From NCBI GenBank assembly GCA_902606585.1, contig CACLGX010000006.1:1-62534 (forward strand): a stretch of 62,534 nucleotides of DNA, written 5' to 3'. A program made the position numbers and the translations under genes. How positions within the stretch are numbered: the stretch's first letter is position 1; every line of letters starts with the position of its first letter. This stretch comes from Paracoccaceae bacterium (lineage in GTDB: Bacteria; Pseudomonadota; Alphaproteobacteria; Rhodobacterales; Rhodobacteraceae). The notes under the pieces were generated by a model. The model was given only the letters and a program-made list of their open reading frames with translations, did no database searches and had not been told where the DNA came from. Below are positions 1 through 52,423 of this stretch, in pieces.

Positions 1-189
1 TGTTGTCATAGTGAAATATCTTTTTATTAGCAGATTTCCTGCATTAGCATTTTTAAAAAGTGCTGGCGATAGCATTTTTAGATTTTCGTTTTTTACAACC
101 ATACATCCATGAAACTTGATTTTTGGATCTAAATACCGTGTTATCAATCTTAAAAGCAGATGCTTTTAATAATCAAAAAGGAAGCTAAG

Positions 190-819
190 GTGGCTAAAGT
201 TGTAACTTTTGCAAATGTTAAGGGAGGATCAGGAAAATCTACATTATGTATTAATATGGCAGCTATTTTAATACGCGAAGGTTATTCAGTAGCGCTAATA
301 GACGCAGATCAGCAAAAATGTTCTCAAGATTGGATCACTGGAACAAAAGATAAATTATTATCCCGAGTTGAAATTATTGACCAAGCGGAGTTTATGGCAT
401 CGAAAAAGGTTGATGTTGATTTTATGCTGATAGATACGCAGGGCAGTCTAACCAAAGAAATGGCTCAGTTTCTTTTCCAATCTTCTTTGATTATCACACC
501 ATGCCGCGTTTCTAGAGACGATATAGTCGGGCAAGGTTGGATTGAAGTTTTTCTCAAGCAATCTAATCGAGATATAAAGAAAGCACCAATTTTGACCGTT
601 TTGAATGGTGTCAATAAAAGGAGCTCTATCTTATCGCATGTAATCGAACAGCTTAAAGAAGATGGGGTTCAAGTCGCTAAAACTTGCATTTCACAAAGAG
701 TTTGCTTTGCAGAGACTAATGTTAATAAGATATCAGTTATTGGTTACAATAAACCCGCAACCGAAGAAATTGTTGACTTAACAAATGAAGCATTGAACTT
801 GATTAAGCGTGAGGCCTGA
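190..819 (+). CDS. ParA/MinD-like ATPase of the chemosensory cluster
   Basis: This is a ParA-family P-loop ATPase of about 209 residues. The deviant Walker A motif KGGSGKST lies close to the N-terminus and the Walker A'-like segment LIDTQGSL follows about 80 residues later. An in-frame ATG lies 30 bases upstream at 160, but the GTG at 190 has an SD-like AAGGA just before it and puts the P-loop at the usual distance from the start, so I prefer 190. It is the first gene of the operon, with the CheW-like gene 3 bases downstream. ParA homologues in chemotaxis clusters (ParC of Vibrio, PpfA of Rhodobacter sphaeroides) place and partition receptor arrays, and I infer that role here. No ParB-like gene is adjacent, so plasmid or chromosome partition is less likely. 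Confidence 0.88.
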   Translation: MAKVVTFANVKGGSGKSTLCINMAAILIREGYSVALIDADQQKCSQDWITGTKDKLLSRVEIIDQAEFMASKKVDVDFMLIDTQGSLTKEMAQFLFQSSLIITPCRVSRDDIVGQGWIEVFLKQSNRDIKKAPILTVLNGVNKRSSILSHVIEQLKEDGVQVAKTCISQRVCFAETNVNKISVIGYNKPATEEIVDLTNEALNLIKREA

Positions 820-822
820 TTT

Positions 823-2067
823 TTGGCTAAAAAATTTGACAAAATATCGCCAAAAAATATTTCGGAAGAAAAATTCAATCAATTAGTTGATGCACTGCCA
901 AGTTCTGTGATTGAACAACCTAAAACCGTGGTCACTGCTCCGGAAAAAAAAGAAAAAATTGATGAAGTCAAAGTAAAAAAGTCAAAGAAGAAAAAATTAA
1001 CCAAAAAAGAAAATCAAAAAATTTCACAAATTGACACAATAGAGGGTCAAATAAATCAAAGTGCTGATCCAAAAATTGACGAGATTATAAATACAAGTGA
1101 GGTGTTTGTATACGAATGCGGAGGAATTCTCTTCGGGATACCGGTAGCTTATGTCACAGAAATTACAAACGATTATGGCGCCATCTCACCACTGAAAGGG
1201 TTTTTAAGGTCTTGTATTGGAACTACCGAATACAGAGGAAAGCTCCTACCTATTTTCCAAAGCCAGGAAAGCTATTTGAAGATTGGTGAAATTAAAAAGG
1301 ATGAAAGTAATAACTTAGACAAAATGCCCAGTGCCATCATTACAGTAAATTATAAAGGAATTATGTTTGCACTCACGATGGAAACGCATGTTGGAATTGT
1401 GTCTATAAAATCCACGAATAACTATAAAAATGAAGCGGCATATGAAGATGAAAATACAAGCGATCTCTTAAAAGATATCGTTTGGTATGGAGAACAAAAT
1501 CTTTTCATTTTCTCACCAGAAAAAATATCTGTGCTGGTTTTCTCAGAGTTAAAAAACCAGATAGCTGTAGGAACTGAAGAAGATATAGATAACGAACCTA
1601 GTGACGAAGAATTAACCGATTTACACCACGATTACATGGTAGCGAAAATAAAAAACAGCACAATCGCTATTGAAATCACAAAAGTTCTTGAGGTTATTGA
1701 AGGATCAGACGTAACTCCACTATACAAAGTAGCAGATTTTATTCGAGGCTTGATCAGTCTGCGTGGGCAAGTTTTGAGCTGTATAGATCTTTCAAAGTAT
1801 CTTGGTCATGAACTTACGGTAATAGACGAGCGTAACAAATTTATTGTTGTCAGTGTATCGGGAGTAGATTTTGCTCTTTGTATAGATCGTGTTCTAGGCA
1901 TCCAGTCTATTCGGCAATCGTCCTTTCAGGAGTCAACCAAAGTTTTCCAAAATGAAATCCCAAATTACTTTCCCAGTTTTCAGGAAACAGGAGGTGAGGT
2001 GACACTCATCTTTAAACCAGACCTCTTTCTTAAATCACCAGAGCTACAAGAATATCAAAAAAATTAA
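823..2067 (+). CDS. Tandem CheW-domain scaffold protein
   Basis: A 414-residue coupling protein with two CheW-like domains. Residues 1-90 are rich in Lys and Glu and look disordered. The first CheW-like domain (about 93-245) starts FVYECGGILFGIPVAYVTEI and is divergent. The second (about 262-405) is canonical, with FIRGLISLRGQVLSCIDL and a terminal beta half with FIVVSVSGVDFALCIDRVLGI. The start is a TTG with GAGG upstream. It lies 3 bases after the ParA gene, so the two are probably co-translated. CheW proteins link receptors to CheA. A tandem CheW could cross-link neighbouring receptor-kinase units, while the charged N-terminus could contact the ParA protein; both are inferences. No receiver domain is present, so it is not a CheV. 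Confidence 0.85.
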   Translation: MAKKFDKISPKNISEEKFNQLVDALPSSVIEQPKTVVTAPEKKEKIDEVKVKKSKKKKLTKKENQKISQIDTIEGQINQSADPKIDEIINTSEVFVYECGGILFGIPVAYVTEITNDYGAISPLKGFLRSCIGTTEYRGKLLPIFQSQESYLKIGEIKKDESNNLDKMPSAIITVNYKGIMFALTMETHVGIVSIKSTNNYKNEAAYEDENTSDLLKDIVWYGEQNLFIFSPEKISVLVFSELKNQIAVGTEEDIDNEPSDEELTDLHHDYMVAKIKNSTIAIEITKVLEVIEGSDVTPLYKVADFIRGLISLRGQVLSCIDLSKYLGHELTVIDERNKFIVVSVSGVDFALCIDRVLGIQSIRQSSFQESTKVFQNEIPNYFPSFQETGGEVTLIFKPDLFLKSPELQEYQKN

Positions 2068-2117
2068 TTGTTTGTAATGAATAGGCAGACCTTTAGTTTA
2101 AAAAACGGAGTAAATAA

Positions 2118-4001
2118 ATGACTGCTAAAAAGCAAAGTTTTCAATTCACAATAACCTTAAAAATTTTGCTTCTGGTGCTCGGACTAGCTCTGCTTTTAGC
2201 ATCATTTGGCGGCTACGCAATGTACGTTATAAATTCGATGGGGATAAAAACTGAACGGCTAAACCAAATCGAGTCTGCTTTGGAGACACAAATAAACAAT
2301 ATGAACGCTTCTCTCATTCAGTCGTCCGCTTTTGTCACACGGGCTACGTTAGAATTGGGTTTGGCCGGATCTGATCAAGGCACCAATTTTAATGCGATTG
2401 AAGAAGGTCGAGACCAATTCAATGCAGCTATTAATACAGCTGATAAATTTTCGAAAGATGCGTTTAATGATCTACAAAAGGCCAAAATGACAATCAATGA
2501 AATAGTTAAAGAGGCGCAGTCAAATAAATTTAGAAAAGTTACTATCAAACAGAGGGTGGAGGAACTTGTAGAACCACCAATTAGCGGTGAAGCAATAAAA
2601 ATTTATAAAAAAATTATCACAGCTCTAGATGGGATAGAGGGTAATTATAGAGACATTAAAAGAGCACAAGATAGAGTAAAAAAGGCTGTCTTGGCTTACA
2701 ATGAATTTATAACTTCAACACAGCTTAGTCCCTATTCGAATTTGTATAAAAAAAGCTTAAGCGAACTTAAAGAAAAAATCTTAAAGGCGAATGCAAACTT
2801 AGCTGAGAAACAAAAAGTTTTGCAGGATATTATAAAAGATGGAAGCTATCTTAACTTATTCAGAGAAATCCAAGAAGCCAAAAAATTAGCTTTTTCATCG
2901 ATGGATAGTGCACAGGCACAATCTTTATACGTGACGTTGATTGTGGGGATTGCCTCAACTTTAGCAGCATTGACTTTCGGGCTACTACTTACAGCAGGTA
3001 TCAGAACGAAGCTTCGCAACGCAAACTCTGCAGTGAATGCAATAACTGAGGGCGATTTGTCGGCTGAAATAAAAGCGTCCGGTAATGATGAGGTCAGTAG
3101 CCTTCTTATCTCAACTAGCCAGATGCGTGATAAGATTGTTGAAGTTATTGGAGCTATGAGCCTAGTGATTGAAAAAATATCTGAAAACTCCTCAAAATTG
3201 GAAGTAACGGCTGACCAAGTATCAGACGGAACAAGCCAACAGGCAACTTCTGTCCAAGAAACATCTGCATCAATGGATGAGATGGCAAATACGATTAACG
3301 AAAATGCTAGAAACGCCACAGAGACAGATGAAACAGCAAAACTACTCGCTGAAAACGCGCTTGTGTGCTCAAACTCTATGAAGAAGACATCAGAAGCAAT
3401 GAGTGATATTTTTGAACGTATTGCTATTGTTGGCGAAATTACCCGTAAGATTGAACTATTGGCGCTTAATGCTTCGGTAGAAGCTGCGAGAGCTGGAGAA
3501 CATGGTAAGGGGTTTGCTGTTGTTGCCTCTGAAGTATCAAAGCTTGCTGAACTCAGTAAAGACGCAGCTTCAGAAATACAAAGATCATCGACAGATGGCA
3601 AAAAGTTAGCAGACGAAACTAACCAAATGCTCGATGAGCTCCTACCTGAGATTGAGAAAACGCAAAACCTTGTTCAAAACATTAGCGCATCTTCCAAAGA
3701 GCAAGCCACTGGTGCAGAGCAAATTAATGGGGCAATCAAAACCCTTGATAACGTTATTCAACAAAATGCCCTTGCCTCATCAAACTTATCCATTTCCGCA
3801 AATGAACTCGCACAAATTGTGCCCGACCTAGAAGACCTGGTGAAGCAGTTTAAGTTAGCAGAGATTGAAGATGACATAGAAATCAACGATGAAAAAGAAG
3901 AAAATCAAGAGAATACCTCAGAAGACAAAACTGACGAAACAGACACATCCTCAAATGAGGAAAACAAATCAGAAAGCAAACAAGATTTCGGCAGATATTA
4001 A
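2118..4001 (+). CDS. Methyl-accepting chemotaxis protein 1
   Basis: A 627-residue transmembrane chemoreceptor. Membrane segments lie at about 12-36 and 269-295. The roughly 230-residue extracytoplasmic part between them is helical and matches no sensory domain I know. A HAMP region follows ([20 protein letters not shown]), then a long MCP signalling coiled coil whose hairpin tip contains [34 protein letters not shown]. The last 45 residues are acidic, ending DFGRY, and carry no clear WxxF CheR-tethering pentapeptide. A good SD (ACGGAG) precedes the ATG. From residue 257 to the stop the gene is identical to the next receptor gene. Its role is to sense a ligand or physical cue and control the CheA encoded two genes downstream. 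Confidence 0.94.
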
Positions 4002-4012
4002 TTTGGGAAGAA
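2887..4012 (+). repeat. Direct repeat copy A, 1126 bp (receptor signalling half)
   Basis: Bases 2887-4012 recur at 4811-5936, an offset of 1924 bp. Every line I compared was the same and the translations are fully identical. The repeat begins abruptly inside the codons just before the second membrane segment and ends 11 bases after the stop codon. Exact identity beside diverged 5' halves points to recent duplication or gene conversion. Confidence 0.95.
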
Positions 4013-4062
4013 TTACTGAGCAACTAATTAAGCTACCGTAATTAATGTAAGGAGAAGATTTA

Positions 4063-5925
4063 ATGGCAACCAGCGATTTTAAATTAAAAATCAACATAAG
4101 CGCTAAAATATTGCTTTTGGTTTTAAGCCTTGCAATCCTCTTGGCTTCTTTTGGTGGATATTCGGTATACGTAATTAATTCAATAGGGCTCAAGATAGAA
4201 AGATTAAATAAAATTGAAAGTGTTTTAGAAACTAGAATTAATAATATGAACTCTGCAAGGATTGAGTCTGCGAACATGACGAGCACATCAGCCTTCACTT
4301 TGATGTTGGCAGGAATGAATGCAACGAGTGACCAAGTCACAGCTTTCAAAAAAACTGTTCAAAATGCAGACTTAAAAATGGAAGAAGGTCTTGCTGAATT
4401 AGAGATTGCTATCAAAACAATTAAAGCAATTGTACCCAAATCAGGGCTTAAGGCGAAAAAGGATGGTTCCCAAGAGTCTAAGTCTTTCTTTGCGCTTTTA
4501 ACAAATCCACCAGTAGAAGCCGAGGCAATGAAAATTTACAAGCGTCTTAATTCTTCCTTGGTTATGTTACGTTCAGAATACAATACAATTTCCGACAATC
4601 AAAAAGGAGTAAATAATGCAGTACTCGCTTACAATAAACACGCTATGTCTGCAGATAAAAACAGGCGGCTTCAGAAAAAAGGGTTTAGGGATAAATTACT
4701 CGACCTAAATAACAAAATTTCTAATGCTAACAAGAGGCTAGAAACCTCTCAAAAGGAATTAAGCCAAAAAAATGAAAATTTATTCAGAGACATTACAGAA
4801 GCAAAAAATATAGCTTTTTCATCGATGGATAGTGCACAGGCACAATCTTTATACGTGACGTTGATTGTGGGGATTGCCTCAACTTTAGCAGCATTGACTT
4901 TCGGGCTACTACTTACAGCAGGTATCAGAACGAAGCTTCGCAACGCAAACTCTGCAGTGAATGCAATAACTGAGGGCGATTTGTCGGCTGAAATAAAAGC
5001 GTCCGGTAATGATGAGGTCAGTAGCCTTCTTATCTCAACTAGCCAGATGCGTGATAAGATTGTTGAAGTTATTGGAGCTATGAGCCTAGTGATTGAAAAA
5101 ATATCTGAAAACTCCTCAAAATTGGAAGTAACGGCTGACCAAGTATCAGACGGAACAAGCCAACAGGCAACTTCTGTCCAAGAAACATCTGCATCAATGG
5201 ATGAGATGGCAAATACGATTAACGAAAATGCTAGAAACGCCACAGAGACAGATGAAACAGCAAAACTACTCGCTGAAAACGCGCTTGTGTGCTCAAACTC
5301 TATGAAGAAGACATCAGAAGCAATGAGTGATATTTTTGAACGTATTGCTATTGTTGGCGAAATTACCCGTAAGATTGAACTATTGGCGCTTAATGCTTCG
5401 GTAGAAGCTGCGAGAGCTGGAGAACATGGTAAGGGGTTTGCTGTTGTTGCCTCTGAAGTATCAAAGCTTGCTGAACTCAGTAAAGACGCAGCTTCAGAAA
5501 TACAAAGATCATCGACAGATGGCAAAAAGTTAGCAGACGAAACTAACCAAATGCTCGATGAGCTCCTACCTGAGATTGAGAAAACGCAAAACCTTGTTCA
5601 AAACATTAGCGCATCTTCCAAAGAGCAAGCCACTGGTGCAGAGCAAATTAATGGGGCAATCAAAACCCTTGATAACGTTATTCAACAAAATGCCCTTGCC
5701 TCATCAAACTTATCCATTTCCGCAAATGAACTCGCACAAATTGTGCCCGACCTAGAAGACCTGGTGAAGCAGTTTAAGTTAGCAGAGATTGAAGATGACA
5801 TAGAAATCAACGATGAAAAAGAAGAAAATCAAGAGAATACCTCAGAAGACAAAACTGACGAAACAGACACATCCTCAAATGAGGAAAACAAATCAGAAAG
5901 CAAACAAGATTTCGGCAGATATTAA
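4063..5925 (+). CDS. Methyl-accepting chemotaxis protein 2
   Basis: A 620-residue receptor paralogous to the preceding one. The first membrane segment is clearly homologous ([27 protein letters not shown]). The extracytoplasmic part is alignable but strongly diverged and includes a short insertion around residues 125-145. From residue 250 onward (second membrane segment, HAMP, signalling hairpin, acidic tail) the protein is identical to receptor 1. The ATG follows a strong SD (AAGGAG). Shared signalling halves and different sensory halves should let both receptors form mixed arrays feeding the same CheA while sensing different inputs. This is inferred from the pattern of identity. Confidence 0.94.
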
Positions 5926-5936
5926 TTTGGGAAGAA
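4811..5936 (+). repeat. Direct repeat copy B, 1126 bp (receptor signalling half)
   Basis: Second copy of the 2887-4012 repeat. Homologous recombination between the copies would remove 1924 bp and leave one chimeric receptor gene carrying sensory half 1. The copies could also collapse in short-read assemblies. Confidence 0.95.
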
Positions 5937-5952
5937 AAGGTTTAACTTAACA

Positions 5953-8859
5953 ATGCTGCAGGACCTCAGCAATGCCCTTGAAACTTGGGATATAGATAAC
6001 AAAAATGAAAAGCTTCCCGGTTCAGCTGAGGAAAGCCATATACTTTCGGCTATAGATAATAAGATATCGACCCTAAGATCCTATATAGGAAAAATAGAAG
6101 CCGGAAATCATGACTTACAGGAAATATTTGACCTAACTTATACTGATTGCCACTTCATAAGAGGATTTGGTCAAATAATGGGGAGCCAAAAAACTTCTCA
6201 TTTAGGTATGTTGGCTGAGTTGATTGCAGACAGTGCAAGATATTTTCAAACATATTCAAATTATTCCATGTCATACCTTTTAGGTCTTTTAATTGAAAAA
6301 TTAGCTCAAGTGATTAAAGACCTAAGGAAAAGTAAGTCTACCAGTTTAGACATCACGGATGTAGTTTCTGAATGCGCTATTTACCTAACAGATCCAATTT
6401 CAGAAATATTAAAAGAAACCGTCGAGAAAAGAGAGGCCAGGTTATCTAATAGCAAAGCAATTCAGGAAAAAACCGTTGAAGCAAAAAAATCGGCGCCCTC
6501 CGCCCAAGTAAGTGCCAAATCGACATCAAAAAAATTAGAAGAACTCGAAGAAGAGCAAGATGAAGTTTTAGATATTCCGAATGATAAGGTTGGGTTAATA
6601 AGTGACTTCTGCGAAGAAGCTTGGGAAAGCCTTCAGGCGAGCGAAAACCTGTTAATTGAACTAGAAAATAATCCTACTTCAAAAGAATTGATAAACGAAC
6701 TTTTCCGAGCAGTTCATACAGTGAAGGGCGGCTCTAGGCTAATCGAAATAAAAAAAATTGAAACACTTTCCCATGAGTTGGAAACTGTCTTGGATAATGT
6801 TCGTTCCGATAAATTAACACTTGATGCTCGATTAATAGATATTTCCTTAGAGTGCATTAAAAGAATTGGAATTATCACGGACGAAGTCGCACATAGAGGG
6901 CCAGTTAAAACAAAGATAAATGATCTAATATTAGCACTCGTATCCAATGACGACACGGTGGAAATAAATAAACGCAATATACAGAATATTGAAAAATCCA
7001 AACCCGAAGAAACGGCAGCAAAATTCAATGATACAAAGCCTTCTGATAATAAAACTAAGACAACTGCTAATATTGTAAGGGAAGAATCAATAAAAGTTTC
7101 AGCTGATAAACTTGATACCGTCCTTAACACATCCTCAGAGGTTTACATAAATAGGATCAGGCTTGATAATGATCAAAAGCTTCTTTCTGATGCAATCGAG
7201 CAAGTTAATCAAGATATTGGAGCACTAAACAAAGAGTTCTCGTCAGAGCTTTCTGAAATTGATCAGAAAAATATCAATCTGTCTTTCGTACCAAAATATC
7301 AAACAGACATTAACATGGGCTTAGAAAAAATTGCTATCCATAATGCCAATTTGCAGAAGAACATTGAGGATTTAGAGGTTTTAAGTTCGCGGCTACAAAG
7401 CGGTGCAATGAATTTCCGAATGCTACCTATTTCTAATCTTTTCAATAGATTTCCAGCGCAAGTTAGAGATATTGCACGGCAAATTGGAAAAAAAGTTGAA
7501 TTGAAAATTCAGGGTGGCGAAACAGAGCTAGATAAAATTTTAATCAATCAATTAGCTGACCCACTCTTGCACCTGATAAGAAATTCGATTGATCATGGAA
7601 TTGAAACGGATCAACAAAGAGCAGCTAATAATAAAACCGAAATAGGCCAAATTAATTTAAGCGCATATTACCTAGGTTCAAATGCAATTATTGAAATTGA
7701 AGATGATGGGAAGGGAATAGATAGCAACATAATAGCAGCAAAAGCCGTGGAAAAAAAATTGCTAAGTACAGAAAGAGCTGCTGAGTTAAGCGAAAAGGAA
7801 ATATTTGATTTAATTTTTGAGCCAGGTTTTTCATCAGCTGAGCAAGTTACAGAATTATCTGGAAGAGGCGTTGGTATGGATGTTGTGAAAACATCAATCA
7901 ATCAAATGCAAGGTTCCATTAAAGTTGAAAGTAAAGTTGACCAGGGCACTAAAATTACATTGCGTTTACCGCTAACATTAGCTGTCGTTGGTATTCTACT
8001 TGTTTCTGAAAATAAATATGAATTTGCTTTTCCAATCTTAAATGTTGAAGAGATAATTAATGTGAACCTGAAAACTGATATTAAAAATATTAATGATACA
8101 TTAGTTTTCAATTTCAGAGGCGAATTAGTTCCAACGCGCCTTTTATCGGATTTTCTTGGCTATCCTAAGAACCCAAAATATGAAGAAAATAAATTTTTAC
8201 TTATTCTCAACGATGGTGAAAATAAAATTGGCGTTATAGTGGACGAGGTACAAGGACAACAAAATGTATTATTAAAGCAACTTGGGAACTTGATTGAATC
8301 GGCTCCTTTTGTAATAGGTTGTACTATTCTCTCCAACAGTAAATTGGTTTTAATTCTGAACGTTTTAGAACTAACTCAATATAATCCAGAAAAAGAAACG
8401 AATAGTCTTACTGAAGAAGTCCAGGAATTAGACACTGAGGAACATAAACGGTCTTTGCAAAAAATTTTAGTTGTTGATGACTCTAAAATGCAAAGGAAAA
8501 GGATTTGTGAATTTTTACAAATTCAAGGCTATAATACCGAAGAAGCCGGTGATGGTTTTGAAGCTCTTAAAGCCGCTGATACTACAAATTTTAACGCATT
8601 TTTTGTTGATATTCAAATGCCTTTAATGGATGGATACGAACTTATTGAAAATTTAAGAAAGACTTCGTCTTACAAGAACACTCCTATTTTCGTCATATCA
8701 GGAGGACATGTTAACAAAGAAAGTATACTGACGCGCTTAGAAGATTTAGATGTTTCCAACTTTTTTGAAAAACCCGTAGACTTGGCAGCTCTGCTTACTG
8801 AGGTGGATATTAGACTATCTATTTCAAACGAAGAATTAAAGAGTGGGAAGCAAGAATGA
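5953..8859 (+). CDS. cheA: Hybrid chemotaxis histidine kinase CheA with two Hpt domains and a receiver
   Basis: A 968-residue hybrid kinase. The N-terminal Hpt-like domain (about 25-125) keeps His67 in CHFIRGFG. A second, canonical Hpt domain (about 210-320) has phospho-accepting His255 in FRAVHTVKGGS. A helical linker and dimerisation region follow. The catalytic domain shows the N box (LLHLIRNSIDHGIE), DDGKGID and GRGVGMDVVKTSI. After that come a CheW-like P5 domain (about 670-810) and a C-terminal receiver (835-955) with VVDDS and Asp886 in FFVDIQMPLMDG. Several Hpt domains plus a receiver are typical of CheA proteins that do not run flagella, such as ChpA or FrzE. The operon holds no simple CheY, so phosphate probably goes to its own receiver and to the cyclase encoded next, whose ATG overlaps this stop (ATGA). 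Confidence 0.95.
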   Translation: MLQDLSNALETWDIDNKNEKLPGSAEESHILSAIDNKISTLRSYIGKIEAGNHDLQEIFDLTYTDCHFIRGFGQIMGSQKTSHLGMLAELIADSARYFQTYSNYSMSYLLGLLIEKLAQVIKDLRKSKSTSLDITDVVSECAIYLTDPISEILKETVEKREARLSNSKAIQEKTVEAKKSAPSAQVSAKSTSKKLEELEEEQDEVLDIPNDKVGLISDFCEEAWESLQASENLLIELENNPTSKELINELFRAVHTVKGGSRLIEIKKIETLSHELETVLDNVRSDKLTLDARLIDISLECIKRIGIITDEVAHRGPVKTKINDLILALVSNDDTVEINKRNIQNIEKSKPEETAAKFNDTKPSDNKTKTTANIVREESIKVSADKLDTVLNTSSEVYINRIRLDNDQKLLSDAIEQVNQDIGALNKEFSSELSEIDQKNINLSFVPKYQTDINMGLEKIAIHNANLQKNIEDLEVLSSRLQSGAMNFRMLPISNLFNRFPAQVRDIARQIGKKVELKIQGGETELDKILINQLADPLLHLIRNSIDHGIETDQQRAANNKTEIGQINLSAYYLGSNAIIEIEDDGKGIDSNIIAAKAVEKKLLSTERAAELSEKEIFDLIFEPGFSSAEQVTELSGRGVGMDVVKTSINQMQGSIKVESKVDQGTKITLRLPLTLAVVGILLVSENKYEFAFPILNVEEIINVNLKTDIKNINDTLVFNFRGELVPTRLLSDFLGYPKNPKYEENKFLLILNDGENKIGVIVDEVQGQQNVLLKQLGNLIESAPFVIGCTILSNSKLVLILNVLELTQYNPEKETNSLTEEVQELDTEEHKRSLQKILVVDDSKMQRKRICEFLQIQGYNTEEAGDGFEALKAADTTNFNAFFVDIQMPLMDGYELIENLRKTSSYKNTPIFVISGGHVNKESILTRLEDLDVSNFFEKPVDLAALLTEVDIRLSISNEELKSGKQE

Positions 8860-10871
8860 ATATTACCAATCCACTCAATTCCAAATTGATTTTCTGTATA
8901 GAAAATGAAGATTTTAATAAATACCTAAAATCAACTAGTGATGAAACAGACAATCGAATTGAATTCCTAGAGATTGAGAATATACCAAGAGCAGTCGCTG
9001 AGAACCCGGATGCCACACTCGTTCTACAGTCAGATAAAAATGAAAATATCTTTTTTGACATAGGAAAAAAATTGAAAGGTATTTTTTTTAAAGAACTTAA
9101 AGTAATTTTTCTATCCTTCGATTATCTTATAAAATCTGATGCCCTGAAGGGCTTCTCATCTTTCATTCAAGCTCCCTGTTCACTTGAATTAATTATTGAA
9201 GAAGCCAATCGTCTCAATGATCATAGAAAAAGAATTCTCCTAATTGATGACTCTAAATTGGTACATAAGAACCTTGTTGGGCCATTAAAAGAAAAAGGTT
9301 TTATTGTCGAACAAGCTTTCGATGGGCAAGAGGGTGTTGAGACAGCCTTATCAACTAAACCAAACTTAGTAATTTGCGACATTGAAATGCCTGTAATGAA
9401 TGGCTTTGAAGCCTGTACTGAGATCAGAAACAACAAAGTTACCCAGGACTGCTACATTATTATGTCAAGCACTCTCAAGTCTGCTGAAGATCAGAAAAAA
9501 GGCTTTGCCGCCGGCGTTGATGAATATATGCCAAAACCTGTTATCTTTGACGACTTACTCGAAAGAATAAATCGTTCATTCGCACTGCAGTCTGTTCTAA
9601 GAGAAAAAATTCTTATTATTGACGAGGACGGATACCAGGCAGAAAACATCGCAAACTATTTAAATAAACAAGGTTTTTCTACAAGAACTTGTTTTGGCAT
9701 AAGTGACGCACAAAGGCTTCTAAAAAAGTTTTCAAGCGATCTAATTATCTCATCTACTTCGCTTAAAGATGGCTCGATTATAGATGTCGATAAAGTTTGC
9801 AAGTCTGAACATACAAATTCAGATTTAGCTTTCATCGCTCTTGTTGATCAAGATAATGAAGGCGATAGAAGAATGGCTTTAAATGCCGGGGCAAAAGATA
9901 CGGTTGCAACGCCTCCAACTGCGGAGGCTCTAGCTGCAGTGGTGGAGCGCACTTTGGCTGAAATAAGGACTGAGCGAGAACGAGACCAATTTCAACGCTA
10001 TGTTTCAAAAGCTTCATTTCAATCTGCACTGGAAAAATCTGTACTAAGTGAATTATCTCTTCCTTCCCGTGCTGAAAAAAGGCAAGCTATTGTCTTCTTC
10101 ATTGATATTGCTCAATTCACAGGCCGTTGTGAAAGATATGCTCCCGAAGAAATCGTCTCACAAATTAACAATATGTTTGAAAGTATAACCGAAATTATTA
10201 CAAAAAATGGTGGGGACATTGATAAATTTATGGGAGATGCCTGCATGTCCTTTTGGTTTGATGAAGGCGACAAGCAAAATCATGACAAAAGTATGTTATC
10301 GATACTAGAGATACAGAAAGCCATTAAAGAATTAAACAATAGCGACCCAATCATGAAAGAAGATCCTTTAAAGGTAAGAATGGGTCTTAACTCAGGAGAT
10401 GTAATTCTGTGTGATATAGGTGCAGCAAAAGCGCGGGTTGACCTAACTATGATAGGCGACGCAGTCAATATAGCCGCAAGACTAGAAACCGCATGTTCGC
10501 AGTACTTTATAGACAATTTAGTAAGCGATAGCGTTGCTACAGATGCACGAGGACAATTTAGTATTAGAATTATTGACCGGATAAAAGTGTATGGAAAGGA
10601 GACACCCGTCGGGGTTTATGAGATAATTAATGAAGTAGAAAATACTTCACAGGAAGAAAAGGACCTTATAAAGCATTTTGAAAAAGGCTTTGAAGCTTAT
10701 ACCAAAGGAAAATTTAGCGCAGGCTTGAAACACTTTCAAAAATCAAAGCCTTTAGAAATTGATCGAGGATATCCGTCAACTCCTTCAGACGTGTATATCT
10801 CTCGATGTAAAATACTAGAAAAATCTTCTCCTGGCGATTGGGATGGAACTTGGACCTTAGAGTCTAAATAA
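8856..10871 (+). CDS. Multi-receiver response regulator with class III adenylate cyclase
   Basis: A 671-residue protein that should make cAMP under CheA control. Residues 1-115 resemble a degenerate receiver. Residues 124-245 are a full receiver with LLIDDSK, Asp175 in ICDIEMPVMNG, and the Lys of MPKPV. Residues 248-375 form a third receiver-like domain with Ser instead of the phospho-Asp (IISSTSLKDG), so it probably cannot be phosphorylated. The cyclase domain (about 408-595) has both metal-binding Asp residues (FFIDIAQFTG and DKFMGDAC), the adenine-specifying Lys457, and MIGDAVNIAARLE with the transition-state Asn and Arg. The tail matches the usual C-terminus of such cyclases (WDGTWTLESK). 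The start overlaps the cheA stop by 4 bases, supporting translational coupling. Confidence 0.93.
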   Translation: MNITNPLNSKLIFCIENEDFNKYLKSTSDETDNRIEFLEIENIPRAVAENPDATLVLQSDKNENIFFDIGKKLKGIFFKELKVIFLSFDYLIKSDALKGFSSFIQAPCSLELIIEEANRLNDHRKRILLIDDSKLVHKNLVGPLKEKGFIVEQAFDGQEGVETALSTKPNLVICDIEMPVMNGFEACTEIRNNKVTQDCYIIMSSTLKSAEDQKKGFAAGVDEYMPKPVIFDDLLERINRSFALQSVLREKILIIDEDGYQAENIANYLNKQGFSTRTCFGISDAQRLLKKFSSDLIISSTSLKDGSIIDVDKVCKSEHTNSDLAFIALVDQDNEGDRRMALNAGAKDTVATPPTAEALAAVVERTLAEIRTERERDQFQRYVSKASFQSALEKSVLSELSLPSRAEKRQAIVFFIDIAQFTGRCERYAPEEIVSQINNMFESITEIITKNGGDIDKFMGDACMSFWFDEGDKQNHDKSMLSILEIQKAIKELNNSDPIMKEDPLKVRMGLNSGDVILCDIGAAKARVDLTMIGDAVNIAARLETACSQYFIDNLVSDSVATDARGQFSIRIIDRIKVYGKETPVGVYEIINEVENTSQEEKDLIKHFEKGFEAYTKGKFSAGLKHFQKSKPLEIDRGYPSTPSDVYISRCKILEKSSPGDWDGTWTLESK

Positions 10872-10875
10872 GCCG

Positions 10876-11697
10876 ATGCTTACTGAAAACGAAACTCGAG
10901 CTGTAATAGAATTCACAAATAAATTCTTTGGTCTTGATCTTTCAGAAAATCTGAAGCCAATTGCTCTTTCGGAGTTAACTAAATTCAAAAAAATAAATAA
11001 AATTTTGGACTTAGAAGATTTCTTAAATAAACATAGGTATGATTTTCAAGATAGTAAAATATTTGATTTACTCGATATTTTTCTAATTCCTCACACAAAT
11101 TTCTTTAGAAATAATCGTCAATTTGAAGCCTTTAAATGCAAAGTTATCCCTGAGTGCCTGGCTAATATGGACAAAAAAAATACTATTGATTTGAGAATTT
11201 GGAGTGCCGGATGTTCTACTGGCGAAGAAGCTTATTCAATCCTCGTTTCTCTAATGGAATACTTTGGTGATGAGTATTGGGAAATCACTTGTGGCATTAT
11301 GGCTACTGATGTTTCAAGAAAGTCACTGGAGATTGCCTCAAGAGGAATTTATGAAACGAAAAAGATGGATAAAATTATTCGCCAAAGAATTTCAAAATAC
11401 ACGGAAAAGGAAAACGATGGAAAACTGCGTTTTAAAGAGAAAGTAAGAAAAGAGGCCAATTTTAAAGAACTCAATTTGAATTCAAAAACTTTTCCATTCA
11501 AAAATAAATTTCACATAATATTTTGCCGAAACATCCTAATTTATTTAAATAAAGATAGTAGACTAGCCGCCGAAAATAAAATTTTTGAATCACTTGAAGC
11601 AGGTGGTTTTATATTTTTGGGCGATGCAGAAGTATTAAATTCCAAAGACCATAAGTTCGAACAATTAGGTAATGGGATCTATAGAAAAGAAATTTAA
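10876..11697 (+). CDS. cheR: Chemotaxis protein methyltransferase CheR
   Basis: A 273-residue S-adenosylmethionine-dependent methyltransferase that methylates receptor glutamates. The N-terminal helical domain ends in PHTNFFRNNRQFEAF, equivalent to the usual TxFFR motif. The SAM site is RIWSAGCSTGEEAYS, and the late Rossmann strand reads IIFCRNILIYL. Length is normal for the family. It starts 4 bases after the cyclase stop. Neither receptor in this operon shows a clear C-terminal pentapeptide, so docking through the methylation helices is more likely than tethering. Confidence 0.94.
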   Translation: MLTENETRAVIEFTNKFFGLDLSENLKPIALSELTKFKKINKILDLEDFLNKHRYDFQDSKIFDLLDIFLIPHTNFFRNNRQFEAFKCKVIPECLANMDKKNTIDLRIWSAGCSTGEEAYSILVSLMEYFGDEYWEITCGIMATDVSRKSLEIASRGIYETKKMDKIIRQRISKYTEKENDGKLRFKEKVRKEANFKELNLNSKTFPFKNKFHIIFCRNILIYLNKDSRLAAENKIFESLEAGGFIFLGDAEVLNSKDHKFEQLGNGIYRKEI

Positions 11698-11711
11698 AAT
11701 ATAATTGAGCC

Positions 11712-12704
11712 ATGTCAGATTATTCTGTAGCATTTATTTCCAATGAAGCCGTCACACGCAGTTACGCTAGTGAATTTTTGACTGAAAAATGGCTTGGTAG
11801 TTTTAAAGTGGCATCTTCAATAAATAGTAAAAAACTTGAAAATTTTAAAATAGATTTGTGCCTAATAGATACTTCAAAAAACTTTGAGAGTTTTAATGAT
11901 CTTGCAAATTTCTGCAAAAATAAAGGGAGGAAAAAAATAATCATTTTCCACTCTGGGAAAAATTTCGACATGCTTAAAAAAGTTATAGAAAAACAGAAAG
12001 ATCGTATAATTTTTAAGAAACTAGAGAGTATTGATAGAAAGGAATTTTTTAAAAATCAGCTTTCAGAACTTATTGAAGTCTTCAACTCTAATAATCTGGA
12101 AGGCTTTATCGATTTAACAAGAATTGAAACTTATAAGCCATTTGATTTAATTTTATTAGGAGCGTCGACTGGTGGGCCTGAAGCCCTAAAGCAAATCATT
12201 GGCGGGCTAAAGCCCAATATGCCACCCATATTACTAGTCTTGCATATGCAAACTGAATTTCTGGAAAGGTACTGTGAGCGATTAACGAAAATAACTAAAC
12301 TTAAAGTAAAAAGATTTATTAATCATGAAAAGGTTATTCCAAATTCTATTTACATTGCAGATGGATCAAACCATATGGAGATAAGCAAAACTGGAATGGA
12401 TTACTTTTTAAATAAGGGAAGTGACGAAAAAGTAAAAGGCCACTGTCCAAGTGTGGATGTTCTTTTTAAATCAGCAGCAAAAATCAAAAATTCAAATCTT
12501 TTAGCTATTTTACTTACTGGTATGGGTTCAGATGGAGCAGAGGGATTAAATTCATTAAAAAATTCTGGAGCTTTTACTGTAACGCAGAATGAAGAAACTT
12601 CAGAAGTTTATGGCATGCCCAAAGCCGCTCTGGAAATAGGGGCAACTGAGTGCGTTCTTAGTCTAGAACAAATTGCAAAAATTTTAAGTTCACAAAAAAT
12701 TTAA
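11712..12704 (+). CDS. cheB: Chemotaxis methylesterase CheB with a degenerate receiver
   Basis: A 330-residue receptor methylesterase. The C-terminal half is canonical: catalytic Ser in LGASTGGPEAL, His in LVLHMQTEF and Asp in LTGMGSDGAEGL. The N-terminal 125 residues have a receiver-like layout but lack the paired acidic residues after the first strand (SVAFISNEAVTRS). An Asp remains at about the position of the usual phospho-acceptor (LCLIDTSKN). Phosphorylation by CheA is therefore doubtful, and adaptation may be regulated by binding or be constitutive. It closes the operon; the next gene is on the other strand. Confidence 0.93.
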   Translation: MSDYSVAFISNEAVTRSYASEFLTEKWLGSFKVASSINSKKLENFKIDLCLIDTSKNFESFNDLANFCKNKGRKKIIIFHSGKNFDMLKKVIEKQKDRIIFKKLESIDRKEFFKNQLSELIEVFNSNNLEGFIDLTRIETYKPFDLILLGASTGGPEALKQIIGGLKPNMPPILLVLHMQTEFLERYCERLTKITKLKVKRFINHEKVIPNSIYIADGSNHMEISKTGMDYFLNKGSDEKVKGHCPSVDVLFKSAAKIKNSNLLAILLTGMGSDGAEGLNSLKNSGAFTVTQNEETSEVYGMPKAALEIGATECVLSLEQIAKILSSQKI

Positions 12705-12722
12705 CTTTATTATTTAATACTC

Positions 12723-13112
12723 TTAAGCATCTGATAATGCGTCTAAAATTGGGCATTCAGGCCGATCATTTCCCTGGCAATTATTCGCTAAAAAGCTAAG
12801 TTGATATCTAAGATCGTTAAGCTCGATAAGTTTAGCGTCTATTTCTGAAATCTTCTCCAAAGTAAGAGCCTTTACTTCCTTACTGGACCTATTTTTATCT
12901 GAGTATAAAGACAGCAGCTCTTCACATTCTTGAATGCTGAAATTAAATTTTCGAGCTTTTGCAACAAATTGTAGTTGGGCCAAATCACCATCAGAAAAAT
13001 CTCTATACCCAGTGCTAAAATTTTTTAAGGGCTTTACGAGACCAATATCGGCATAATATCGAACCGTTTTTACTGTTAAATTTGATAGTTTTGCCGCTTT
13101 ACCTATATTCAT
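12723..13112 (-). CDS. MerR-family metal regulator, CueR/HmrR-like
   Basis: A regulator of about 129 residues. The N-terminal winged helix-turn-helix is typical (MNIGKAAKLSNLTVKTVRYY), followed by a long dimerisation helix. The C-terminal loop CQGNDRPECPILDAL matches copper- or silver-sensing CueR/HmrR proteins, including the paired metal-binding cysteines. An ATG at 13133 is possible, but the one at 13112 has an AAGGA SD and gives the standard MerR N-terminus. It is divergent from a DUF4396 membrane protein, with a MerR-type promoter between them, so that gene is its likely target. Sensing Cu(I) or Ag(I) is inferred from the C-terminal loop. Confidence 0.92.
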   Translation of the reverse strand: MNIGKAAKLSNLTVKTVRYYADIGLVKPLKNFSTGYRDFSDGDLAQLQFVAKARKFNFSIQECEELLSLYSDKNRSSKEVKALTLEKISEIDAKLIELNDLRYQLSFLANNCQGNDRPECPILDALSDA

Positions 13113-13121
13113 AATATATCC

Positions 13122-13152
13122 TTTACACTCCACCTAATGGAGAGTTTATACG
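13122..13152 (+). promoter_or_regulatory. MerR-type promoter and operator with 19-bp spacer
   Basis: A -35 box TTTACA (13122-13127) and a -10 box TATACG (13147-13152) are separated by exactly 19 bp. The spacer holds the dyad CTCCA-cctaa-TGGAG (13128-13142), with outer matches at 13125-13126 and 13144-13145. The overlong spacer with a centred dyad is the signature of promoters that MerR proteins activate by DNA distortion. It lies upstream of the DUF4396 gene and next to the regulator start. Confidence 0.85.
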
Positions 13153-13171
13153 TTAATAAAACGAGGTCAAC

Positions 13172-13618
13172 ATGACGTATTTGGTGAATGAATTAAATAT
13201 TAATTGGCGGTGCAAACACACATGGGTTCGTTCATCCAAAAATACTGGATGGTGCCTGCTAGGGTGCGCAATAGGTGATATTGGAACCATACTATATTTT
13301 CAATTAATGGGAATAGATTGGCCCGTATGGCTTATCATGACGCTGGCAATTATAAATGGCATTATAACGTCAATTATATTAGAGACTTTCATTTTAAGTA
13401 AGCAAATGGAGCTTCGGCAGGCTTTTAAAACTGCGATTGGTATGTCTTTAATTTCGATGGTTTCAATGGAATTGGCCATGAACCTAACTGATGTACTGTT
13501 AACAGGCGGAGCCGTTATAAAATTATGGGTCCTTCCTTTTATGCTCTTTGCGGGTTTTATTACCCCACTTCCATATAATTATTGGCGGCTTAAAGCTCTC
13601 GGAAAATCCTGCCACTAG
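13172..13618 (+). CDS. DUF4396-family membrane protein, putative metal-responsive
   Basis: A 148-residue protein with three or four hydrophobic segments. The motif TWVRSSKNTGWCLLGCAIGDIGTILYF near its N-terminus fits what I recall of DUF4396 proteins. His, Cys and Met residues (CKHTWV, GWCLLGCAIGD, SMVSMELAMN) could bind soft metals within the membrane. It is the only gene downstream of the MerR-type promoter at 13122-13152, so expression should respond to the metal sensed by the divergent CueR-like regulator. The biochemical function of the family is not known to me. A part in copper or silver tolerance is inferred from context. Confidence 0.75.
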   Translation: MTYLVNELNINWRCKHTWVRSSKNTGWCLLGCAIGDIGTILYFQLMGIDWPVWLIMTLAIINGIITSIILETFILSKQMELRQAFKTAIGMSLISMVSMELAMNLTDVLLTGGAVIKLWVLPFMLFAGFITPLPYNYWRLKALGKSCH

Positions 13619-46114: not shown

Positions 46115-49100
46115 CTAAGTCCAGTCTAAAACTCCCTCAAGGACTTCAGACATAGTTGCTAGCAACATCTCCGCATCCTCAAGTTCAATTGTTAGTGGCG
46201 GCCTAATTTTAATGATATTATCCTTTGGTCCGTCACTTCCAATTAAAATACGGTTTTCTCGCATTTTATTTTTTATATATGCACATAATTCTGTAGCTTC
46301 TGACCCATCACCTTTTATTATTTCTATACCGATAAAAAGGCCCATTCCCCGAACATCGCCAATAAAATCAAAATCATTTTTTAACTCATTAAACCCAGAG
46401 ATTAAAAAATCGCCAACCGTCTTAGCATTCTTTTGAAGTTTCTCTTCATCAACAATATCTAAAACTTCTGCACCAATTCTGCATGATAAATTTGAGCCTC
46501 CAAAGGTTGAAAAAAATTCGATACCATTATCAAAGCTTTCACCAATCTCTCTTGTGGTTATAACCGCGCCTAGTGGATGACCATTTCCTAAAGGCTTGCC
46601 AAGAACTACGATGTCAGGATTTACTTCTTGAAACTCAAATCCGAAGTAGTAGTCACCCAAACGCCCCAAGCCCGTTTGCACTTCATCAGCAATACACACT
46701 CCACCATGTTTCCTTATCTTACTATAAACTTGCTCTAGATATCTTTTCGGAGGGATAATTTGTCCCCCTACAGATGGAAATGTTTCCATTATGAACCCAG
46801 ATAACCCAATACCTTTCAAATTTAATCTTTCGATTGCACCATCAGCCAAATTTGCAAATTTAACGGCACGATCTGGATCATCTTTTTTAAATGAACCCCT
46901 ATAGTCGTCGGGCACCTCTATAATTTCAACCCAGTCAGCCTGTCCTACTCCATTAGGCTTTTTAAACTTGTAGGCTGAGATACTTAAGGCACCTGTGGTA
47001 TTGCCAAAGTAACCTTCATCGGGTGTAATAATTCCTTTTTTTCCAGTATGAGCTTGAGCTAAACGTAAAGCTAACTCATTAGCCTCAGACCCCGAATTTA
47101 CAAAATAACATACTTCAAACCCACTTGGGAGTTTGGACAGTAGTTTTTTTGCAAATTTAGCTTGCGATGGATGTAGGTAACGAGTGTTTGAATTCACCCT
47201 ATTGAGTTGATCTAACGCAACTTGATTGATCCTAGGATGCGAATGCCCCACATGGGGAACATTATTATAGGCATCAAGATAGGGCCTTCCCCATTCATCA
47301 AAAATATGATGCTTCCATGCCCTCGATATTAATATAGGATCATCATAAGAAATACTTAAATTTCCACCAAAGTGGTTTAGTCGATCATTTAGAACTTCCT
47401 TTTTATTGCTCGGCTTATAAAGGCAATCACTTTCTTTTAAATTTAATAGCGAGGCTGGGTTTGGGCAAATAGAATTCCAGAAGCCCAAATCGTCGGGGTC
47501 AGCGACACCTGGCCAGTCAGCCTCCATTCCATCTGTGGTTAGTGCTAGTTGAAAATGGACATGGGGTGCCCAACCTCCGTTCACATTGGAGGCGCCTAAT
47601 TGACAAAAGCTTTGACCCTTCTCAATTTTGTCACCGACTTTGAGTTTACTTAAAAATATTGGATCAAGATGTCCATATAACGTAAAGAACTCGTCTCTAT
47701 TTGGCGTGGTGTGCTTTAAAATAATTACACCGCCGTAATCCAGTTGGTTGTCGCGATATTCAGCCGTAAAAACTTCGCCTTCTAGAGGGGCAAACAATTC
47801 TTTACCTTGATTAGCAAAAACATCAATTGCGATATGAACCGTTCGTCTGTTGCTCGCTTTCCATGGACCCAATCTGAAAGCTGGAGCCGTATAAATTAGA
47901 CGGGGCTCGTTGTAGTAACCCAACCAAAAGTTAGCTCGATCACTAATTTCAAACCCAATATTTTTTGCTTCATCACTTTTTAATTCAAATGGGTTCTGGG
48001 GAACTGACGTGTTTTCAACCGATAAAGATTTAATTTCTAAATTAGCCAAATTAGTTCCAAAAAGTGGGAAAAAATTATTGGACTCTTCATTTATCCAATC
48101 CACAACCCGATCAGCGCCTTCGACCACCGGCATTCCGCAAGAATTTCTAAGTCTTGCTTTTATCAAACCCTCATTGATATTCAAATTTTCTAAAAAATTC
48201 CAAGCAGGAGCCTGAGAAATCGTTATATAAGCATCTTCTGAATTTTTTGATGCTAATAGAGTTGAATTGACAACGCTTACAGCAAGACGCATCCGTAATA
48301 GACGCCAAACTAAATCAATTTCTTCAGCACTAAGCGGGTAAACACTATGGTAACCCGAAACAAATGCTGTCAGCATTTTTTCCGGCGCTGAATTGTCTAA
48401 AACAATATAGGCAGCAGCAATTGATAAATCACAAACTCTCGGAGCTGCACAGATATCTCCAAAGTCGATGATTCCCGATACGCTTAAGGATTGGTATTTT
48501 TCTCCAGATACCAGAATATTGTAATCATTTGGATCGTTATGGATCGTCTGCTGTCCCAAACTTGAGAGTTTTGGTAAAATTTCCTCGAAATCGTCGACAA
48601 TTTTTGAAATAATTTCGAGCCGAGCGGCATTCTTTATTACTGAAAAATATTTTTTTATCCAAAGAGATCCCGGCAAATTCCATTTAAAATCTCTGACTAA
48701 ACTCTCATTTTTATAGTCGGCTAAAGCCTTAGCAATGTTGCCTAAAGCAGCTCCCACGCCAAAGGATGTACTGGTAGATTTTTGTTTAATCTCAGCATAG
48801 CATTTGCCTGAAATATAAGTCTGCACCCAAATTAAACGCTCATTTCCAGAGCAGTCCTCCTCGCGAATAAAAGAAGCGCCCTTAGACGACTTCACCACCT
48901 TTGGGACTTTAAGCGAGGGGTCTTTATTATTCAGGTGTTCAATTGCTTCAATCTGAGCTTTGATCAGCCATTCGGGACAATCATTACGCATTATTTTTAA
49001 AATGCACTTTGCTCCATTTTTCTTTTGAGCTAAAAAATTTAAATCAAGTTCACCAGGCAGAACGGACAAGTCAGCTTCGATACCCCAATGAATTTTTAAA

Positions 49101-49153
49101 ATTCCTGCCCAGAATTTTTCTAAATCAACGCCAGGACCTTTACCCATATACAC
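46115..49153 (-). CDS. Three-domain fusion: APH kinase, M23 peptidase-like, class III aminotransferase
   Basis: A 1012-residue protein with three parts. Residues 1-330 are an aminoglycoside-phosphotransferase-like kinase with the catalytic loop IHNDPNDYNIL (205-214) and IIDFGDI. Residues about 420-560 are an M23-type domain with zinc ligands HIAIDV, LYGHLD and HVHFQL. Residues 590-1010 are a class III PLP aminotransferase with NSGSEANELALRLAQAHTG, IADEVQTGLG and the PLP lysine in LGKPLGNGHPLG. The kinase and aminotransferase halves recall hydroxylysine kinase (AGPHD1) and the phospho-lyases AGXT2L1/2, so one polypeptide might phosphorylate an amino alcohol and then eliminate phosphate. The role of the M23 part is unclear. 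Confidence 0.9.
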   Translation of the reverse strand: MYMGKGPGVDLEKFWAGILKIHWGIEADLSVLPGELDLNFLAQKKNGAKCILKIMRNDCPEWLIKAQIEAIEHLNNKDPSLKVPKVVKSSKGASFIREEDCSGNERLIWVQTYISGKCYAEIKQKSTSTSFGVGAALGNIAKALADYKNESLVRDFKWNLPGSLWIKKYFSVIKNAARLEIISKIVDDFEEILPKLSSLGQQTIHNDPNDYNILVSGEKYQSLSVSGIIDFGDICAAPRVCDLSIAAAYIVLDNSAPEKMLTAFVSGYHSVYPLSAEEIDLVWRLLRMRLAVSVVNSTLLASKNSEDAYITISQAPAWNFLENLNINEGLIKARLRNSCGMPVVEGADRVVDWINEESNNFFPLFGTNLANLEIKSLSVENTSVPQNPFELKSDEAKNIGFEISDRANFWLGYYNEPRLIYTAPAFRLGPWKASNRRTVHIAIDVFANQGKELFAPLEGEVFTAEYRDNQLDYGGVIILKHTTPNRDEFFTLYGHLDPIFLSKLKVGDKIEKGQSFCQLGASNVNGGWAPHVHFQLALTTDGMEADWPGVADPDDLGFWNSICPNPASLLNLKESDCLYKPSNKKEVLNDRLNHFGGNLSISYDDPILISRAWKHHIFDEWGRPYLDAYNNVPHVGHSHPRINQVALDQLNRVNSNTRYLHPSQAKFAKKLLSKLPSGFEVCYFVNSGSEANELALRLAQAHTGKKGIITPDEGYFGNTTGALSISAYKFKKPNGVGQADWVEIIEVPDDYRGSFKKDDPDRAVKFANLADGAIERLNLKGIGLSGFIMETFPSVGGQIIPPKRYLEQVYSKIRKHGGVCIADEVQTGLGRLGDYYFGFEFQEVNPDIVVLGKPLGNGHPLGAVITTREIGESFDNGIEFFSTFGGSNLSCRIGAEVLDIVDEEKLQKNAKTVGDFLISGFNELKNDFDFIGDVRGMGLFIGIEIIKGDGSEATELCAYIKNKMRENRILIGSDGPKDNIIKIRPPLTIELEDAEMLLATMSEVLEGVLDWT

Positions 49154-51652: not shown

Positions 51653-52423
51653 TTGAAAAACATGGTCAAACTCAGATATTTTGTAATTTTTTTAACTTGC
51701 TTATTGGGATTTTCAGCTCAAGCGGCAGACAATGGCGTGAACATAAAAATTGTGGAGGATAAGAGATGTATTTTCTCAAATGGACAACCCAATCATAAAA
51801 TTGGGCAATTCCCAAACAAAGGAAATCCTAACCGTTTTAGGCAACAAGAAATAAAAATTTGTATAGATGTAAATCCGACCCTTACTGGTAGAATTGACCG
51901 AAGGGCAAATGGGTCAGGAATTACAATAACTGGTATTATAATTCGCCCTGGGACAGCGGATTGGTATGATGCTTCAAGCCCAAGAGGATTTAGTAGAGAT
52001 CAATCAAGTGGATGGAATTTAGAAGGTATGGGACCGGCTAATACACTAGGATTAGATAGTGAGAATGCTCATTTAGATAATAGGGGTCTCTACCACTACC
52101 ATGGTGTTTCTCCTTCTTTAGTATCTAGCTTAGATGAAACGTTAATTGGTTATGCCGCAGACGGTCATGAAATACACTTTATTGGGGACAAGGCTATTTC
52201 TTCTTGGCAGTTAAAGGCTGGGAAGCGATCAACAAAGCCTTTTGGGAAACATGACGGAACCTATAATGAAGATTATGAATACATTGCTGGAAGTGGTAAT
52301 TTAGATGAATGCAATGGCGCAAAAAGTAATGGCAAATACATATACTTCGCTACCAATAAATATCCCTTTTTCCCAAGATGTTTCTTGGGTAGCGTTAGTA
52401 GGGATTTCAAGGGTCGACCCTAA
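51653..52423 (+). CDS. Secreted YHYH-domain protein 1
   Basis: A 256-residue exported protein. The N-terminal signal peptide (YFVIFLTCLLGFSAQA) is followed by a region with KRCIFSNGQPNHKIGQFPN and then the name-giving motif in NRGLYHYHGVSPSL, with GYAADGHEIHF and the Cys of LDECNG later. The YHYH domain is found in marine bacteria and has no known activity to me; its His, Asp and Glu residues could bind metal. TTG at 51653 and ATG at 51662 are both possible starts. It is followed by a second YHYH gene 72 bases downstream. Confidence 0.85.
   Translation: MKNMVKLRYFVIFLTCLLGFSAQAADNGVNIKIVEDKRCIFSNGQPNHKIGQFPNKGNPNRFRQQEIKICIDVNPTLTGRIDRRANGSGITITGIIIRPGTADWYDASSPRGFSRDQSSGWNLEGMGPANTLGLDSENAHLDNRGLYHYHGVSPSLVSSLDETLIGYAADGHEIHFIGDKAISSWQLKAGKRSTKPFGKHDGTYNEDYEYIAGSGNLDECNGAKSNGKYIYFATNKYPFFPRCFLGSVSRDFKGRP

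Follow-up and report, generated by a model that had tools for sequence, protein, structure and literature searches.

At positions 190 to 12,704 of the 62,534-nucleotide stretch of contig CACLGX010000006.1 analyzed here (hereafter the window) lie eight genes of a chemosensory cluster, all on the + strand, with intergenic gaps of -4 to 61 bases, which likely form one operon. In order, they encode a ParA-like ATPase, a double-CheW protein, receptor 1, receptor 2, a CheA with a receiver domain (CheA-REC), a receiver-cyclase, CheR, and CheB. A preliminary description, made from the DNA letters, had presented this cluster as a nonflagellar chemosensory operon with a direct cyclic AMP (cAMP) output, and the gene content that it listed is borne out by Pfam domains for the receptors, CheW, CheA-REC, CheR, CheB, the ParA-like protein, and the receiver-cyclase, except that the "tandem CheW" consists of two CheW domains fused in a single protein rather than two separate genes. 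The gene order is identical in related genomes as far as each contig extends, and because the ratios of nonsynonymous to synonymous substitution (dN/dS) of the cluster genes are 0.04-0.27 (from one comparison for the ParA-like and double-CheW genes and from up to three for the others), these genes have been kept beyond chance. The cluster comprises the following features:

190 to 819, + strand: ParA-like ATPase with Walker motif KGGSGKST, possible array positioner (Pfam CbiA, 7.3e-15).
823 to 2067, + strand: coupling protein with two CheW domains (Pfam CheW, two stretches, 2.4e-31).
2118 to 4001, + strand: receptor 1, with two transmembrane segments, a helical periplasmic sensor, a HAMP-like region, and a signaling hairpin (Pfam MCPsignal, 2.9e-26; transmembrane segments and HAMP by eye).
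2887 to 4012, + strand: exact direct repeat, copy 1, 1,126 bp (sequence identity).
4063 to 5925, + strand: receptor 2, with an unlike sensor half and the same signaling half (Pfam MCPsignal, 6.1e-26).
4811 to 5936, + strand: exact direct repeat, copy 2, 1,126 bp (sequence identity).
5953 to 8859, + strand: hybrid CheA with Hpt (His255), kinase, CheW-like P5, and receiver (Asp886) (Pfam Hpt 1.2e-12, HATPase_c 5.1e-18, CheW 1.7e-23, Response_reg 1.7e-20).
8856 to 10871, + strand: output protein, pseudoreceiver-receiver-pseudoreceiver-class III cyclase (Pfam Response_reg, two matches, 4.6e-31; Guanylate_cyc 2.7e-17).
8856 to 9221, + strand: residues 1-122 of the output protein, possible degenerate receiver (by eye; no Pfam family at E ≤ 10).
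9222 to 9590, + strand: residues 123-245, true receiver with acceptor Asp175 at 9378-9380 (Pfam, motif residues).
9591 to 9971, + strand: residues 246-372, receiver fold without acceptor Asp (PF00072, 1.8e-8).
10071 to 10655, + strand: residues 406-600, class III cyclase domain (D417, K457, D461, T531, N538, R542).
10876 to 11697, + strand: CheR methyltransferase (Pfam CheR, 3.9e-52, the sole family).
11712 to 12704, + strand: CheB methylesterase (Pfam CheB_methylest, 2e-55, residues 147-324).

Of the three receiver-like segments in the output protein, the middle one is alone in having a complete set of residues for phosphorylation (D131, D132, D175, and K227), and in the segment that follows, as judged by eye, two serines at 299-300 replace the acceptor Asp and T352 replaces the conserved Lys. 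Asp175 and the cyclase metal residues are intact, as previously claimed, and none of the named receiver and cyclase residues varies among seven orthologues; because these orthologues are 94-99% identical, invariance is weak evidence by itself, and dN/dS is the more informative measure. The middle receiver gave dN/dS values of 0.029, 0.008, and 0.013 in three pairwise comparisons, below those of every other domain measured in the cluster except the adjoining 33-codon linker between the receivers and the cyclase, which has zero amino acid changes, and the cyclase domain gave 0.061, 0.045, and 0.070. Among solved structures, the nearest chains are those of adenylyl cyclases (5x4t and related chains, 8e-24), with which D417 and D461 (metal), K457, N538, and R542 align. 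The adenine residues had also been described as intact; this is so for K457, and the second position is Thr531 rather than Asp, the identical residue being found in 5x4t, a pattern that we take to be that of class IIIb enzymes. The residues that characterize class III adenylyl cyclases are present, and the protein is predicted to synthesize cAMP. Its top NCBIfam match is PleD, below the model cut-off, and it shares with PleD a true receiver followed by a pseudoreceiver and then a cyclase, whereas PleD itself is REC-pseudoREC-GGDEF and the protein described here carries a class III nucleotidyl cyclase and an extra N-terminal segment. Predicted structures of the output protein (from seven near-identical sequences) and of receptor 1 were too poor for use (mean predicted local distance difference test scores of 37.3 and 47.0, respectively) and show no more than a loose agreement with the receiver-like and helical patterns.

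The coupling of cheA to the cyclase gene noted earlier is a shared start/stop overlap, ATGA, which is found in 7/7 genomes. The cyclase was found in 7 of the 61 genomes searched, and the same seven genomes hold one Hpt match each, indicating one CheA per carrier; the other 9 of 16 genomes of the genus hold none, including G010, which nonetheless holds the 5' end of the cluster. A second Hpt around CheA His67 (CHFIRG), suggested by eye, was rejected, Pfam reporting no Hpt in residues 1-180 at E ≤ 10. No flagellar gene or CheY was found in the window, either by eye in the lists of open reading frames (ORFs) or by Pfam on 29 window ORFs. Across the seven partial carrier genomes there are 52 Response_reg matches (9 in G000 and 43 in the six others), none of which is a stand-alone receiver in an open frame of less than 181 amino acids, the shortest frame with a match being one of 181 amino acids at a contig end. 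Because the carrier genomes are 58-77% complete (73% for G000), the absence of a stand-alone CheY is weak for any single genome but strong for the group: supposing that each carrier had one such gene, the chance of missing it in all seven would be ~2.5e-4 when calculated from the stated completeness with misses taken as independent. Together, the shared ATGA, the conserved receiver and cyclase, the absence of a stand-alone receiver, and the single Hpt match in each genome make phosphotransfer from CheA to the cyclase protein the simplest reading of these sequences. The nearest CheA proteins in 385 genomes of the class are 32-34% identical, and no cyclase was found in the fetched flanks of the five nearest CheA loci.

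With moderate confidence, we propose that the cluster encodes a CheY-less chemosensory system, similar to the Wsp and alternative cellular function (ACF) systems, in which the state of the receptors would set cAMP levels through a cyclase protein phosphorylated by CheA. As judged from their domains, the two membrane receptors, with different sensors and a shared signaling half, and the double-CheW protein would control the hybrid CheA, which would autophosphorylate at His255 and pass the phosphate to Asp175 of the cyclase protein, while its own receiver may act as a second phosphate acceptor or sink. Activation of PleD involves a change in the dimer, brought about by the phosphorylated receiver together with the pseudoreceiver; the architecture of the output protein is consistent with a similar switch, in which the phosphorylated receiver and the neighboring pseudoreceiver would alter the dimer required by the class III cyclase. 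Adaptation of the receptors would fall to CheR and CheB, the latter probably lacking feedback by phosphorylation, and cAMP would act on the cyclic-nucleotide-binding proteins of the cell. Finally, the ParA-like protein may, via the double-CheW protein, position or partition the array.

Placement of the array by the ParA-like protein, put forward in the preliminary description, remains an inference and is the weakest step of this mechanism. The ParA-like gene starts with GTG at 190 (an ATG at 160 is also open), and its product matches NCBIfam ParA_partition at 111.5 bits, below the cut-off of 180. The closest proteins in PDB are a small plasmid ParA (5u1g, 1.2e-18) and ParF (4dzz, 1.3e-18), and it is possible, although less likely than not, that the gene is a remnant of the partition system of a plasmid or other element, lies upstream by chance, and encodes no positioner. 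On the other hand, it lies on the same strand 3 bp before the double-CheW gene, an order kept in the 5/5 genomes covering that end (the window, L065, L066, L068, and G010), with a dN/dS of 0.141 in one comparison. A ParA-like ATPase gene directly upstream of a CheW-like gene in a che operon is also the arrangement of the Vibrio ParC/ParP pairs analyzed in PMC5706961, and a ParA-like ATPase adjoining an array component in a chemosensory operon is likewise described for PpfA/TlpT (PMC6829392). The double-CheW protein is ParP-like by arrangement only; NCBIfam gives a weak CheW match and nothing else, and its Lys-rich N-terminal extension of ~92 amino acids has a dN/dS of 0.375 versus 0.120 and 0.087 for the CheW domains (one comparison).

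Several observations weigh against the proposed CheA-to-cAMP route as a whole. G000 contains six cyclase matches and thus further sources of cAMP, and no protein identified in that genome was clearly a CRP-type regulator; in addition, any single carrier, being incomplete, could possess an unlinked CheY that escaped detection. Furthermore, the C-terminal receiver of CheA has all key residues and could be the main phosphate acceptor, in which case the cyclase receiver would be driven by another histidine kinase or stay unphosphorylated, and the operon link would reflect shared expression. Such a scheme has a precedent in the ACF cluster of S. meliloti, which functions with CheA-REC and no CheY (PMC8429497), and in 5/5 plasmid loci picked from 25, REC-cyclases adjoin histidine kinases, the fetched stretch containing neither CheA nor a receptor. 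We consider it unlikely, however, given the ATGA coupling, the presence of CheA in 7/7 genomes with the cyclase, and the dN/dS of the cyclase receiver (0.008-0.029) versus that of the CheA receiver (0.082, 0.121, and 0.175). A further point concerns the receptors, the signaling arms of which show a 7-residue gap on each side when aligned with Tsr, presumably a 36H receptor, which suggests the 34H length class. Two papers link 34H receptors to F8 systems and 40H receptors to ACF systems, for which the 40H class is typical rather than defining. An ordinary motility system, with CheY or a motor target elsewhere and the cyclase as a side branch, would accord with these 34H/F8-like arms, with the incompleteness of the genomes, and with flhA in 4/8 carriers, which makes a motility target possible, but it appears very unlikely given that 0/52 receiver matches are stand-alone, that the joint chance of a miss is so low if misses are independent, and that genomes lacking the cluster have flhA at about the same frequency (3/8).

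The CheY-less system proposed here resembles the Wsp and ACF systems in its receptors, CheW, CheA-REC, CheR, CheB, and a multidomain response regulator for a nucleotide messenger, which takes the place of CheY in the che cluster. Wsp, with cyclic di-GMP exchanged for cAMP, is its nearest working model. It differs from Wsp in that WspR is REC-GGDEF and WspC is CheR-TPR, whereas the output protein has Guanylate_cyc and no GGDEF, and CheR has no TPR match in Pfam. Unlike Wsp and ACF systems, the cluster also holds a ParA gene, receptors whose arms appear 34H-like rather than 40H, and a CheB whose N-terminal part is not recognized as a receiver. A 2012 survey lists a mononucleotidyl cyclase among the receiver-fused domains of chemosensory clusters selected by CheR-TPR (PMC3447774); the receiver fused to a class III-type cyclase is shared with those clusters, whereas the CheR described here lacks a TPR match. 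Likewise, the Pil-Chp system of Pseudomonas has a chemosensory CheA that controls cAMP, but there a separate regulator, PilG, acts on CyaB and type IV pili (PMC12632253), whereas the cyclase described here bears its own receiver. The direct wiring of CheA to cAMP, put forward in the preliminary description as an unusual signaling design, is thus supported by sequence as the simplest reading and does seem unusual, but it is not new in kind, a REC-mononucleotidyl cyclase being already listed for chemosensory clusters (PMC3447774). What varies is the triple receiver-like region, the plain CheR, the CheB without a recognizable receiver, the ParA gene, and the narrow distribution. No description of this cluster was found in the open-access literature searched, which is weak evidence.

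DNA searches place the cluster in 8/16 genomes of one marine Rhodobacteraceae genus, which takes in the metagenome-assembled genome MED-G52 and single-cell genomes. The eighth carrier is G010, the contig of which ends within the first receptor gene; a count by CheA/Hpt only (7/16) was dropped because assemblies are interrupted at the receptor repeat and such a count overlooks the 5' end present in G010. G006 gave no cluster match, but the two borders of the site each coincide with the end of a G006 contig, so absence of the cluster from this genome is uncertain. No full-length cyclase orthologue was found outside the genus in the collections searched. For example, the sole full-length match in the 385 class genomes was the window's own cyclase, and a scan of genome_contigs, suited to close relatives, gave 40 loci, of which the six spanning residues 1-671 all belong to this genus. 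None of 4,963 plasmid records covered 80% of the cyclase protein, and viral contigs, in a scan also suited to close relatives, held no orthologue. Of the 49 loci L063-L111, six had a receiver and a cyclase within a single ORF, and all six are genus orthologues (by single-sequence phmmer, which can miss distant cases); the stretches fetched from Magnetococcales and other distant loci contained receivers or CheA only.

Within the genus, flhA is present in 7/16 genomes, namely in four carriers (G002, G008, G010, and G014) and three noncarriers, and flagella neither follow nor exclude the cluster; a tie between the cluster and the absence of flagella was therefore rejected. The label "nonflagellar" holds for the gene neighborhood and for the partial genome G000 but not for the carriers, and the comparison of related genomes proposed in the preliminary description showed a conserved gene order and, in seven partial carrier genomes, no stand-alone CheY, with the cluster present both with and without flhA. 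As a separate observation, G003, G007, and G009 have flhA, no Hpt/CheA match, and no cluster DNA and, subject to genome incompleteness, possibly have flagella without any chemotaxis system.

Downstream (3') of the cluster lie genes for a MerR regulator and then a DUF4396 protein. No empty site was found; G012 has the MerR and DUF4396 genes in different surroundings, with no che genes among the listed ORFs. When the cluster (~6.9-12.9 kb of the window) was compared with its flank (12.9-20 kb), their divergence disagreed in 3/5 genomes: in L063 and L064, the cluster is 86-91% identical versus 92-98% for the flank, and in L068, the cluster is ~99% identical (to 11.95 kb) versus 93-99%. The disagreement was not seen in L066 and is unclear in L067. 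This pattern suggests that lineages have exchanged alleles of the cluster.

The sensor halves of the two receptors share 38% amino acid identity, with no credible Pfam family for the sensor of receptor 1, and their signaling halves fall within the exact repeat. In L065 and L066, the two copies of the repeated region are 98.5% and 99.3% identical within the genome versus about 91-93% between genomes, and the receptor tails are identical within each genome and different between the two. Because the copies are alike within genomes and less alike between them, the sequences point to concerted evolution of the signaling half. Short-read assembly could add to this likeness, but separate assemblies show the same pattern, which speaks for a genuine effect. 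L068 has a single receptor, and several carrier contigs end within the repeat. Both receptors end in an acidic tail with KQDFGRY (3998-4001 and 5922-5925), conserved in 7/7 aligned receptor sequences, to which CheR or CheB possibly docks.

With regard to adaptation, CheR shows no TPR in Pfam at E ≤ 0.001, and residues 1-140 of CheB show no Response_reg at E ≤ 10. Because this N-terminal part of CheB has no recognizable receiver and a dN/dS of 0.355-0.554 (versus 0.127-0.151 for the esterase part), phosphorylation feedback on CheB seems doubtful. The CheB frame in L063 (5951-6799) is shorter N-terminally than those of the other orthologues.

If the proposed route holds, chemoreceptors would stand one phosphotransfer step from cAMP, as a counterpart of Wsp and cyclic di-GMP, in what would be, as far as partial genomes show, the sole CheA system of the clade. 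This would allow the shaping of a cAMP signal by an adapting array to be asked directly and would provide a model for receptors that keep a common signaling half while their sensors diverge. A more speculative extension, to which we assign a low probability, is that cAMP would be the sole output of the only array of these cells, produced at the array itself. With the array placed by the ParA-like and double-CheW proteins, the cell would possess a positioned and adaptation-controlled source of cAMP, and gene conversion of the shared signaling half would keep its two inputs compatible. The array of flagellated carriers would then steer behavior or adhesion via cAMP and not via CheY.

Potential effectors of cAMP exist across the group, cyclic-nucleotide-binding domains being found in 16/16 genus genomes. 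The four such proteins of G000 that were read are a mechanosensitive-channel protein, a HlyD-type adaptor, a glutaminase, and an acyltransferase/GDSL protein. At L202 (G000, contig C8, 1-9000), a cyclase gene, a C39-type ABC transporter, and the cyclic-nucleotide-binding HlyD-type adaptor stand in a row, preceded by a 774-amino-acid protein that has MPPxAM/MDADMM-like repeats and matches no Pfam family; these genes may form a cAMP-gated secretion unit. The glutaminase is fused to a cyclic-nucleotide-binding domain (L203, 793-2628, contig C27), and the protein of 881 amino acids at L204 (500-3145, contig C2) combines cyclic-nucleotide-binding, acyltransferase, and GDSL domains, with a second weak cyclic-nucleotide-binding match in the genome scan.

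Outside the coding features, a scan of positions 1-13300 returned 33 promoter-like sites versus 38.4 expected and 12 terminator-like sites versus 9.0, which provides no usable signal, and Rfam and tRNA scans of the window gave zero matches. Elsewhere in the window, positions 46115-49153 encode a 1,012-amino-acid fusion of an APH-type kinase, an M23 peptidase, and a class III aminotransferase, and two adjoining YHYH-domain proteins are encoded at 51653-52423 and 52496-53575.

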